The notes under the pieces are model-generated. The model saw only the letters and a program-made list of their open reading frames with translations. It had not been told where the DNA came from and did not search any database. DNA of 22,947 nucleotides, from positions 1 to 22,947 of IMG/VR virus record IMGVR_UViG_3300027728_000099; one strand, 5' to 3'. Positions 17,078-20,388 of this stretch are shown piece by piece. Numbering within the stretch: position 1 is the stretch's first letter; the number at the start of each line of letters is the position of its first letter. A program made the translations under genes and the position numbers. The DNA comes from a virus.

Positions 17078-17106
17078 TTGAATTATATACGCCTTTTTGC
17101 TATTAT
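17078..17106 (+). promoter_or_regulatory. Sigma70 promoter of the plus-strand oxygenase/carbamoyltransferase island
   Basis: TTGAAT (17078-17083), exactly 17 bases, then TATTAT (17101-17106). The predicted start at about 17113 gives a 25-base leader before the ATG at 17138. It overlaps the minus-strand promoter at 17110-17082 almost completely, so the two should compete for polymerase. Confidence 0.6.
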
Positions 17107-17110
17107 ACAA
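17082..17110 (-). promoter_or_regulatory. Sigma70 promoter of the late operon, predicting a leaderless message
   Basis: On the minus strand TTGTAT (17110-17105), 17 bases, then perfect TATAAT (17087-17082). The usual 7-base distance places the transcription start at 17075, the first base of the ATG of the gp10-like gene. The nearest purine-rich stretch, AAGGCG, is 14 bases upstream of the ATG and upstream of the predicted start. Confidence 0.6.
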
Positions 17111-17137
17111 CGCAGAAATTTAAATGATAAAGATAAA

Positions 17138-17740
17138 ATGTCAATTATTTTAGATGAAATAAAGCAAGAAGAAAATTATTCCCATAGTTTAATTGTTACT
17201 TATCCAAGAACAATTCAAATATCACATGGTGTTTATGACAATGTAATAGATATGCATAATATGTGTATGATGATTTCTCAAAATTTAGATACAACAGAAT
17301 TAACTAATGTTTATGGTGGTAAAACTCCATGGGGATTTTTTAATAATAAGCCAGAGTTTACCAGATTTATAGATTATGTTGTTCAAAAACATCAAACTTC
17401 AAATCCATTTTTCAATAAACAAAATTGGTATAATAAAAATATATCTTTTGATTCTTGGGGTAATGAAATTAAAAAAGGAGATAGTGTTGCAATGCACACC
17501 CACAAAGATCATCATTTAATTTTATATTTAACTGAAGGAGCTCCATTAATACTTCCTGAACTTAAAATGACAATTATGCCTAAAAGAGGAGCTTATTATA
17601 TATTCCCACCCAATGTATTACATGGGGTTGGTAAAGTTGAAGAAGAGACTAAAACAAGATATTGTTTAGTAACCAATCTTATAGAAGGAACTGATTGGAA
17701 GAAAAATAAATTAATTAAAGAGGTATCGGATGCAAAATAA
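17138..17740 (+). CDS. 2OG-Fe(II) oxygenase-like protein (cupin fold), first gene of the island
   Basis: From the ATG at 17138 this is 200 residues. The C-terminal half is a double-stranded beta-helix: AMHTHKDHHLILYLTEG (118-134) with metal-type histidines H120/H122, GAYYIFPPNVLHGVGK (151-166) with the distal histidine H162, and TRYCLVTN with R174 in the 2-oxoglutarate-binding position. The HxH rather than HxD/E pattern recalls the phage 2OG-FeII_Oxy_5-type family. It would couple 2-oxoglutarate to hydroxylation of an unknown substrate. A longer GTG start at 17054 lies upstream of the promoter and inside the opposing gene, so I prefer 17138. Its 3' end overlaps the carbamoyltransferase start by 11 bases and contains the first copy of the 27-bp direct repeat. 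Confidence 0.7.
   Translation: MSIILDEIKQEENYSHSLIVTYPRTIQISHGVYDNVIDMHNMCMMISQNLDTTELTNVYGGKTPWGFFNNKPEFTRFIDYVVQKHQTSNPFFNKQNWYNKNISFDSWGNEIKKGDSVAMHTHKDHHLILYLTEGAPLILPELKMTIMPKRGAYYIFPPNVLHGVGKVEEETKTRYCLVTNLIEGTDWKKNKLIKEVSDAK
17709..17735 (+). repeat. 27-bp direct repeat, left copy
   Basis: Identical to 19762-19788 over 27 bases. The repeat holds an AT-rich arm, the core AAAGAGGTATCGGATG with Shine-Dalgarno and start codon, and CAA. In this copy it is also coding sequence for the last residues of the first oxygenase (KLIKEVSDAK) and gives the carbamoyltransferase its ATG at 17730. The two copies lie 2053 bases apart and flank exactly the carbamoyltransferase and the second oxygenase. 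Confidence 0.9.
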
Positions 17741-19250
17741 AATTTTTATAGGTTTAAATTTAAGAAGTCACGATGCTAATATTTCTTATAGTAATGGAAA
17801 AAAAGTAAAATATATTAAGTTTGAAAGAGAATTTGGTATAAAACATTATGGTAACACTGATTACCATTTGTTAGAGTATGCCCTTAATAAATGGAAAATT
17901 GATTATAAAAAAATAAATGCTATAGCATATTTAGGTGATATGAATTATCCTGATTTATCTTCTAATACACCGAATTCATGGTTAAATAGTGACGCCCTTT
18001 TTGAAGAACATAAACCAAAAAGTTGGTATTTTGAAAAATTTAAATGTCCTTTTTTTAGAATAGATCATCACTATGCTCATCATCTAAGTATATGGCCAAT
18101 AAAAAAAATAGAAAAAACAGATATTAGTTTTGTAAATGATGCACTTGGTGATTTAGAAGATACTTATTCTGTTTTTTTAAATAATAAAAAAATTAAAAAA
18201 TTTGAAAGAGAAGAAGCAGCTTCTTTTGGAGCTTGTTTAAATAATCAAGCACATAGATTAAATGTTTCAGGTCTTTGGCAAGACTTAGCAGGAAAATTAA
18301 TGGGTCTTAAATCTTTTGGAAAAATTGACTATGAATATTGTGATTTATTTAAAGATGACATAAAACAAATGAGTAGTTTATTTAATGAAAGAAAATATTA
18401 TAGATCAAAAACAAATTTAGAAAAAAATGAATTAACAAGACTAGCATCTTGCCATTTTAAAGCAGAAAAAATGATTTTTAATCATTTTAAAAATTATGCG
18501 GATAAAAATAAAAAAATATTATATACAGGGGGTGTTTCACAAAATTGTGTGTTAAATACATTATTAAATAATAATTTTACCAATTTATATATTCCACCAC
18601 ACGGAACTGATGATGGTCTTTCTTTGGGTGCAATTGAATTTTTAAGACAGTATTATAAAGAAGATTATTTTGATAATGAAAATTTTCCTTTTTGGCAAGA
18701 TGATTATTCTCCTCAAAGAGGACCTTCTGATAAAACTATTTTAAAAACAGCAGAATGGTTAGCTCAAGGTAAAATAGTAGGATGGTATCAAGGTAATGGA
18801 GAATTAGGACCTAGAGCTCTTGGGAACAGATCAATTTTAATGGATCCAAGGGTTAAAAATGGTAAAAATATATTAAATAATAAAGTTAAAAAAAGAGAAT
18901 GGTTTAGACCTTTTGGAGCGTCTATTTTAGAAGAACAAGTAAAAAATTATTTTAATTTTAATGGAAAAAGTGATTATATGTTACTACTTTCAGAAATAAA
19001 AGAAAAAATTAAATTTGAAGCTATAACACATGTGGATAATACATGTAGAATACAAACAGTTTCTAATAATATTGTTTTTAAAAAATTAATAGATAGTTTT
19101 TTTAAATTAACTGGGATACCTATGCTATTAAACACTTCATTAAACGTTAATGGCAAACCATTAGCTTCAAATGTTATTGATTGTTTTGATTTATTTAAAA
19201 ATAGCGAATTAGACATATTAGTAATAGGAGATGAAATTTATTTAAAATGA
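17730..19250 (+). CDS. Carbamoyltransferase, NodU/CmcH/TobZ family
   Basis: A 506-residue enzyme with both domains of the family. N-terminal Kae1-like domain: IDHHYAHH (111-118) for metal and carbamoyl-adenylate, GGVSQNC (267-273) and PHGTDDGLSLGAI (290-302) for nucleotide binding. C-terminal YrdC-like region: GELGPRALGNRSIL (357-370), REWFRPFGASI (389-399) and LNTSLNVNGKPL (467-478). All canonical motifs are present, so it should be active. Such enzymes use carbamoyl phosphate and ATP to put a carbamoyl group on a hydroxyl of sugars, antibiotics or Nod factors; related enzymes are also reported in phage DNA hypermodification clusters. The neighbouring oxygenases could create the hydroxyl. 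Its ribosome binding site and ATG lie in the left direct repeat, and its 3' end overlaps the next gene by ATGA. Substrate unknown. Confidence 0.92.
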   Translation: MQNKIFIGLNLRSHDANISYSNGKKVKYIKFEREFGIKHYGNTDYHLLEYALNKWKIDYKKINAIAYLGDMNYPDLSSNTPNSWLNSDALFEEHKPKSWYFEKFKCPFFRIDHHYAHHLSIWPIKKIEKTDISFVNDALGDLEDTYSVFLNNKKIKKFEREEAASFGACLNNQAHRLNVSGLWQDLAGKLMGLKSFGKIDYEYCDLFKDDIKQMSSLFNERKYYRSKTNLEKNELTRLASCHFKAEKMIFNHFKNYADKNKKILYTGGVSQNCVLNTLLNNNFTNLYIPPHGTDDGLSLGAIEFLRQYYKEDYFDNENFPFWQDDYSPQRGPSDKTILKTAEWLAQGKIVGWYQGNGELGPRALGNRSILMDPRVKNGKNILNNKVKKREWFRPFGASILEEQVKNYFNFNGKSDYMLLLSEIKEKIKFEAITHVDNTCRIQTVSNNIVFKKLIDSFFKLTGIPMLLNTSLNVNGKPLASNVIDCFDLFKNSELDILVIGDEIYLK

Positions 19251-19771
19251 TTAGAGATTTTATTCATATTAAAAATAATTTTTTAACCAAAGAAGAAGCA
19301 GAAAAAATAATAGATATTTTTATAAATCATACCGATCAATATTATCAAATAGGAGGATTTTCTTACTATGATATTGAAAATAATTTAAAGTTATTAAATT
19401 TTGAAAAATTAGATTTTTTAAAAGGAAGAATTCAAAAAGAATTAGATTTTTATTTAACATTGTATCCAGAAGCAAGGATACCTATGACACTTAAAGAACA
19501 AAAATTTAAACATTGGAAACCTGGAACTTCTTTTGAAGTTTGGCATTCTGAAGTAAATAGTAAAATAAATATGACCAGAATTTTAAATTTTATGATATAT
19601 TTAAGCTCTCATAATTGCGGTACACAATTTTTTAATAAAAAAATAATATTATCTGAAGTAGGTAAGTTAGTTATGTTTCCTAGTTATTTTACACATACTC
19701 ACAGAGGCCAAGCATGCCCAGACAATAAGGATAGATATATTTTAAGTGGTTATTTTAATTTAATTAATTAA
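19247..19771 (+). CDS. 2OG-Fe(II) oxygenase, second of three
   Basis: A 174-residue oxygenase of the prolyl-4-hydroxylase-like superfamily. WHSE (99-102) gives the HxE iron pair H100/E102. MTRILNFMIYLS is the core strand, and GKLVMFPSYFTHTHRG (139-154) carries the distal iron histidine (H152 preferred). R163 in DRYILSGYF binds 2-oxoglutarate. The N-terminus (IKNNFLTKEEAEKIID) is the helix seen at the start of this family. It shares ATGA with the carbamoyltransferase stop, so the two are coupled, and together they fill the interval between the 27-bp repeats. Likely hydroxylates a small molecule, sugar or protein; the substrate is not evident. Confidence 0.82.
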   Translation: MIRDFIHIKNNFLTKEEAEKIIDIFINHTDQYYQIGGFSYYDIENNLKLLNFEKLDFLKGRIQKELDFYLTLYPEARIPMTLKEQKFKHWKPGTSFEVWHSEVNSKINMTRILNFMIYLSSHNCGTQFFNKKIILSEVGKLVMFPSYFTHTHRGQACPDNKDRYILSGYFNLIN

Positions 19772-19788
19772 AGAGGTATCGGATGCAA
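19762..19788 (+). repeat. 27-bp direct repeat, right copy
   Basis: Second copy of the repeat at 17709-17735, identical over 27 bases and diverging immediately on both sides. Here it spans the last codons of the second oxygenase (stop at 19769-19771) and supplies Shine-Dalgarno AAAGAGGT and the ATG (19783) of the third oxygenase. Confidence 0.9.
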
Positions 19789-20388
19789 GAGAGAAAAAGT
19801 AGTATTAAAGACTTTATTGGTGTTTATGATGGTTATATTCCAGATGAAGCATGTGACCAGGCTATAGAGTTATTTAAAAAATACGAAAGTTTTAATAAAA
19901 CATGGACCAGATTTTCAAGCGAAAATGCAACTCAAGATCGAAAACAAGATAAACAATTATTTTGTGAACCAGACGTTTTAACAGATCAAAAATTTAACAT
20001 TATTAAATTAAAATTATTAATGGTTAATTTTGACATAGCTTTAAAACACTATTATACAGAAACCAATATTAGGAAATATTGTGATAGCGCTGAATTAATT
20101 ACAGAACATGTAAAAATACAAAAAACATTACCTACAGAAGGTTATCATATATGGCATGTAGAACATGGTAAGGGTTTTGATTGTGAAAAAAGAGTTTTGG
20201 TTTATTCAATATATTTAAATACTGTTGAAGAAGGTGGTGAGACAGAATTTTTATATCAATCTCAAAGAGTAAAACCTGTTAAAGGTAGAATTGTAATATG
20301 GCCAGCTGCATTTCCATATGTACATAGAGGAAATCCCCCACTAAGTGGAGAAAAATATATTGTTACTTCTTGGATCAATTATAAATAA
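19783..20388 (+). CDS. 2OG-Fe(II) oxygenase, third of three (PKHD-like)
   Basis: A 201-residue oxygenase of the type common in T4-like and marine phages. YHIWHVEH (121-128) gives H125/E127. VLVYSIYLNTVEEGGETEFL (138-157) is the core with the EGGETEF signature, GRIVIWPAAFPYVHRGNPP (168-186) has the distal histidine H181, and K191 in GEKYIVTSW sits where the 2-oxoglutarate-binding Lys/Arg is found. All key residues are present. It differs strongly from the second oxygenase, so it is not a recent duplicate. Its ribosome binding site is in the right direct repeat, and its stop codon directly abuts the stop of the opposing gene at 20389 with no base between. Confidence 0.88.
   Translation: MQERKSSIKDFIGVYDGYIPDEACDQAIELFKKYESFNKTWTRFSSENATQDRKQDKQLFCEPDVLTDQKFNIIKLKLLMVNFDIALKHYYTETNIRKYCDSAELITEHVKIQKTLPTEGYHIWHVEHGKGFDCEKRVLVYSIYLNTVEEGGETEFLYQSQRVKPVKGRIVIWPAAFPYVHRGNPPLSGEKYIVTSWINYK

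Follow-up and report, generated by a model that had tools for sequence, protein, structure and literature searches.

The passages on 2OG-Fe(II) oxygenases in a study of HTVC023P-type pelagiphages describe eight distinct families of these enzymes, often encoded close together (PMC9599517). The DNA analysed here is a 22.9-kb fragment record (the whole stretch is referred to as the window) from a marine relative of the SAR11 phages. Among cultured phages, the nearest relative found was Pelagibacter phage HTVC027P, with syntenic homologues around the island of interest (tail, collar, glycosyltransferase, ox1 and ox3). The locus resembles the HTVC023P-type clusters in that HTVC027P has the same ox1–ox3 pair of oxygenase genes beside homologous tail genes. 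It differs in that the passages of PMC9599517 include no junction, repeat or cassette such as those described below, and the term 'carbamoyltransferase' is absent from the text of that paper.

The locus also resembles the insertion of morons or auxiliary genes, as extra genes lie between two conserved genes, are missing in relatives and form a reshuffled cargo; the island genes fall into the PHROG category 'moron, auxiliary metabolic gene'. Here, however, the cargo appears to have borrowed a resident start signal and to have left a 27-bp duplication, and the promoter-like leader is part of the island, not of the cassette. The mobile regulatory cassettes of T4-type phages known as PeSLs, reportedly described by Arbiol et al. 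in 2010 as repeated intergenic regulatory DNA tied to gene shuffling, share with our locus the association of repeated DNA with gene shuffling. Although PeSLs consist of a promoter and a stem–loop, a consensus scan revealed no promoter-like site overlapping the 27-bp repeat on the + strand, and the RNA folding of the two repeat copies was not beyond that of shuffled sequences (z 1.53 and −0.01). In Cluster K mycobacteriophages, 13-bp start-associated sequences precede many genes per genome (PMC3203893). They have in common with the present repeat that a short repeated sequence with a Shine–Dalgarno motif lies just 5' of start codons, whereas here there are two copies, apparently from one duplication, and none in other contexts.

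The island consists of four + strand genes (ox1, cbt, ox2 and ox3; Table 1) flanked by − strand virion and tail genes. In the cbt product both the N- and the C-terminal Carbam_trans domains exceed the Pfam cut-off, and the protein matches TobZ and GdmN in the PDB. Reading the genes as a defence system gave generic 2OG matches only. As a hydroxylating enzyme adjoins an O-carbamoyltransferase, the gene content suggests that the cargo may first hydroxylate and then carbamoylate a shared substrate. A 5-hydroxymethylcytosine carbamoyltransferase is known from metagenomic DNA-modification work; it acts on 5hmC and co-occurs with thymidylate-synthase-type genes (PMC8670742). No gene of the latter type came to notice in the window, which is only a fragment.

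Table 1. Features of the + strand island in the window
Feature	Position	Strand	Description
Promoter-like leader of the island	17078..17137	+	TTGAAT, 17 nt, TATTAT, then ...ACAACGCAGAA; consensus scan
ox1	17138..17740	+	2OG-Fe(II) oxygenase/cupin-like protein; Pfam 2OG-FeII_Oxy_5 weak, below cut-off; PHROG 81
Left repeat copy	17709..17735	+	ox1 terminal codons; Shine–Dalgarno and ATGCAA of the carbamoyltransferase
cbt	17730..19250	+	NodU/TobZ-type (Nol-like) carbamoyltransferase, 506 aa; Pfam Carbam_trans_C and _N; PHROG 1601
Cassette sequence	17736..19761	+	2026 bp; missing from every empty-site relative
ox2	19247..19771	+	2OG-Fe(II) oxygenase-like, 174 aa; Pfam 2OG-FeII_Oxy_3 weak, below cut-off; PHROG 61
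Right repeat copy	19762..19788	+	ox2 end; Shine–Dalgarno and ATGCAA of ox3
ox3	19783..20388	+	2OG-Fe(II) oxygenase, 201 aa; Pfam 2OG-FeII_Oxy_3 above cut-off; homologue of HTVC027P gp73

The 27-bp repeat and the empty sites of relatives

The preliminary description of this DNA had reported identical 27-bp repeats, each with a Shine–Dalgarno motif and an ATG. Both copies of AATTAATTAAAGAGGTATCGGATGCAA are indeed exact and lie 2053 bp apart. This is the longest exact repeat of the window and is beyond chance: in order-3 Markov simulations of the window composition, the longest repeat had a mean of 15.7 and a maximum of 21 (100 runs). No third copy was detected in the window at up to three mismatches (0 expected in shuffles). 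Each copy contains AGAGG, a spacer of 6 nt and then ATG, with the Shine–Dalgarno at 17719–17723 and the carbamoyltransferase ATG at 17730 in the left copy, and the Shine–Dalgarno at 19772–19776 and the ox3 ATG at 19783 in the right copy. The terminal codons of ox2 (LIN-stop) fall within or beside the right repeat, whose first ~10 bases double as coding sequence for this end (L-I-N-stop). As these first bases (AATTAATTAA) also encode the ox2 end, some of the 27 bp may reflect microhomology instead of duplication, and the true duplication could fall slightly short of 27 bp if the cassette ends matched junction bases by chance.

A search of 2.9 million viral contigs (IMG/VR) with the 18-base core of the repeat found two copies in contig L002 and one copy each in L001, L005 and L007. 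L002 is a sister contig with both repeat copies and 99.7% identity across 10.4 kb; a single-assembly artefact is unlikely, as this separate contig (0.3% differences) has the same structure. In L001, L005 and L007 the same flanks enclose one repeat and no cassette, a form of relative for which the preliminary description had proposed a search: the ox1 end lies on the left and the ox3 start on the right with nothing in between, and ox1 runs into ox3 with an 8-base overlap. When the two repeats of the window were collapsed in silico, exactly the carbamoyltransferase and ox2 were removed and ox3 stayed intact. The C-terminus of ox1 changed from ...SDAK-stop with the cassette to ...SDAREKK-stop, and DAREKK-stop is the natural ox1 end in L001 and L007. 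The collapsed window equals the L007 junction from GATTGG to GAAAAAGTA. Recombination between the copies had been proposed to remove the cassette while ox1 ends in frame and ox3 keeps its start, and the collapse agrees with this in reproducing the junction of natural relatives.

The exact 8-base ox1/ox3 overlap was present in 25 distinct junction sequences, compared with one cassette allele (the window and L002); the empty state is therefore ancestral and the carbamoyltransferase–ox2 pair a derived insertion. In the ox1 tree, 28 rows are empty and nine have inserts, with nine changes of state. The ox1 and ox3 homologues of HTVC027P (gp74 and gp73; 43% and 58% amino acid identity respectively) also overlap, and the cassette is absent. 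These junctions, the empty sites and the repeat collapse uphold the earlier suggestion that the repeats are the duplicated edge of an insertion into an ancestral one-copy junction. The bases immediately 5' of ATGCAA differ among relatives, whereas the two window copies agree with one another and with those of L001 and L007; the duplication thus looks young and local.

Origin of the cassette insertion

Taken together, we consider it likely that a single gain of genes left the repeats as its scar, namely as the duplicated edge of a two-gene insertion. In the ancestor, ox1 and ox3 would have had 8 bases in common, and their junction, ...AATTAATTAAAGAGGTATCGGATGCAA..., would have encoded the ox1 end and carried the Shine–Dalgarno and start of ox3. 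A segment with the carbamoyltransferase and ox2 would then have been joined with its left end after ATGCAA, and its right end would have re-entered resident DNA 27 bases upstream, so that the junction was duplicated. In this event ox1 would have retained its body with the loss of three residues, the carbamoyltransferase would have adopted the Shine–Dalgarno and start of ox3, ox2 would have come to terminate within the resident AATTAATTAA, and ox3 would have retained its own signals via the second junction copy. For the recombination step itself, we infer that illegitimate recombination or template switching during replication, or end-joining, would be likeliest, directed by a small number of bases in common (CAA/AA at the left end and AATTAATTAA at the right). 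The insertion would have been retained by selection, since all four genes remain translatable. In the window, the duplicated junction supplies the last codons of ox1, the Shine–Dalgarno and start of cbt, the last codons and stop of ox2, and an intact ox3 start.

The cassette is known from just one allele (two near-identical contigs), and the event is therefore reconstructed from a single outcome. Donor searches with ox2 and with cbt found no case of the two genes side by side outside this allele, and the ox2 search found no close relative of ox2 outside it. As the native cassette ends are not given by any donor with adjacent cbt and ox2, microhomology is inseparable from duplication. A literature search for a matching mechanism returned nothing specific.

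The junction has accepted at least nine different insert alleles. Other genes lie between ox1 and ox3 in eight phages (L020, L023, L031, L034, L042, L055, L056 and L065). Left of its insert, L034 keeps a 47-nt ox3 5' end, 40 of the 47 positions being identical (0 of 300 shuffles as good). A 16-nt ox3 5' remnant precedes the insert in L042 (15 identical; P 0.02) and in L031 (14 identical; P 0.13, weak alone), and L055 has a probable 27-nt remnant (21 identical; P 0.05). The remnants of L031, L034 and L042 begin exactly at the ancestral ox3 ATG position, and chance is less likely than the P values indicate because of this shared register. In L023 the insert ATG occupies the former ox3 ATG position behind the same Shine–Dalgarno. 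Left edges overlapping the old ox3 start thus recur in L034, L042, L031 and probably L055, suggesting that the left joint often lies in or at this start with variable length. That three or four other inserts keep partial ox3 5' ends of varying length points to illegitimate insertion, guided by microhomology, at a boundary between genes that tolerates it, within an auxiliary-gene island. Only in the window (and L002) is the Shine–Dalgarno duplicated as well; in the eight phages with other inserts at this junction no repeat covers it, and none of their inserts carries the 27-mer.

The preliminary description went further in seeing a portable ribosome-binding-site repeat as a general route by which phages add genes, with the repeat serving as a recombination handle. 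Each copy does hold a good Shine–Dalgarno and start, and start regions are involved elsewhere, as the window ox1 has the start of another island gene, oxA, and the L023 insert sits behind the ox1/ox3 Shine–Dalgarno. However, the 27-mer is confined to the ox1/ox3 junction and the other inserts are without it, so that we regard a portable repeat as very unlikely. Among the 2.9 million contigs, the 18-base core otherwise occurred in three contigs with unrelated flanks, apparently as chance matches, and a relaxed repeat pattern added further ox1/ox3 junctions and matches in unrelated sequence, but nothing else. In a scan of ~45 related islands, repeats at both gene starts were found solely in this allele and, without the Shine–Dalgarno, in L034.

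A target-site duplication made by a transposase or another dedicated mobile element would likewise give an exact direct duplication bounding the cassette and relatives with a one-copy empty target, as in L001, L005 and L007. Yet the cassette carries just cbt and ox2, with no transposase or integrase, and terminal inverted repeats are absent, the best end-to-end inverted match being 6 bases. The left-over pieces of other inserts vary in length (47, 27, 16 and 0), whereas such a duplication would be of fixed length. A transposon origin was rejected on these grounds (enzyme, inverted ends and left-over lengths) as extremely unlikely. It is even harder to credit that the cassette is ancestral and that the empty sites are deletions between the repeats: such a deletion yields exactly the empty sequence, but empty junctions are widespread and varied (down to 43–58% amino acid identity), and the cassette allele is one tip of the tree.

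Homologous exchange of whole segments also occurred between these phages and could have brought the cassette, as ox1 is 93% identical between them compared with 67–81% for the flanks. An unsampled donor would have had cbt–ox2 followed by the ox1-tail/ox3 junction, and crossovers in ox1 and ox3 would have imported the block, so that the repeat would be older and belong to the donor line. The strong mosaicism fits this, since in addition to the contrast between ox1 and its flanks the similarity of ox3 alternates from ~66% to 95% per 100 bases, and the island content is reshuffled among relatives. We nevertheless judge it unlikely, as the two copies do not differ from each other and share their junction type with L001 and L007, the closest relatives, in a stretch that varies in most others; moreover, such an exchange merely shifts the insertion event to another phage.

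The finding is a refinement of ordinary phage mosaicism, unusually well resolved, and not a new type of system. It is a clean case in which the empty site, the filled site and the duplicated edge of a phage cargo insertion are all readable, and it shows how genes may enter an overlapping operon with both neighbours unbroken. With at least nine insert alleles, in an island whose promoter-like leader is widely conserved, the junction is a natural test bed for auxiliary-gene swapping in SAR11-type phages. The repeat is also predicted to ease loss of the cassette by recombination between the copies. A broader reading, that gene boundaries in the island are preferred recombination points with start-codon hand-over, and that the scar allows reversible excision of the cargo, with cassette-bearing and empty forms side by side in a single phage population, seems unlikely to us.

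Leader and cargo of the island

A 30-base leader core, present once in the window, was found exactly in 32 viral contigs ahead of several different first genes. The leader at 17078–17117 of the window (TTGAAT, 17 nt, TATTATACAACGCAGAA) is near-invariant in many relatives, and the gene behind it varies (oxA, an F5 oxygenase, sulfotransferase-like genes or ox1); L007 and L032 have a different leader. The promoter-like site at 17078–17106 is conserved, and the cassette itself contains only weak promoter matches at shuffle frequency. The island's true fixed regulatory element may be this leader.

In the window, ox1 lies directly behind the leader, and a comparison of starts showed that its first codons, ATGTCAAT, are common to the start of oxA. 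At 17128–17160 the ox1 start ATGTCAATTATTTTAG combines the oxA start with the ox1 body, as though through loss of oxA together with the genes that follow it, or through a move of ox1 up to the leader. With this ox1/oxA swap, the operon shows a second exchange of start regions. Homologues of cbt (~60% amino acid identity) occur elsewhere in the island, in the orders leader–cbt–ox1 (L231), oxB–cbt–ox1 (L051) and oxC–cbt–oxB–ox1 (L040). Their native start is located ~3 codons further in, where the window has no matching ATG, which fits a moved gene on a borrowed start.

In L033 (5176–6034), L021 (6209–6741) and L022 (4760–5017), ox3 is followed by + strand pieces of the tail-collar gene in inverted orientation with respect to the main collar gene; those of L033 have exact direct repeats of 53–76 bases in common. 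The inverted pieces are possibly spare receptor-binding segments. In L044, L045, L047–L049 and L051–L053, an ox3 homologue follows ox1 on the opposite strand. Two small genes of ~128 and 115 aa (families F7 and F8) are found as a pair, on either strand, in several islands (L025, 2893–6196; L029, 1881–6704; L034, 573–3766).
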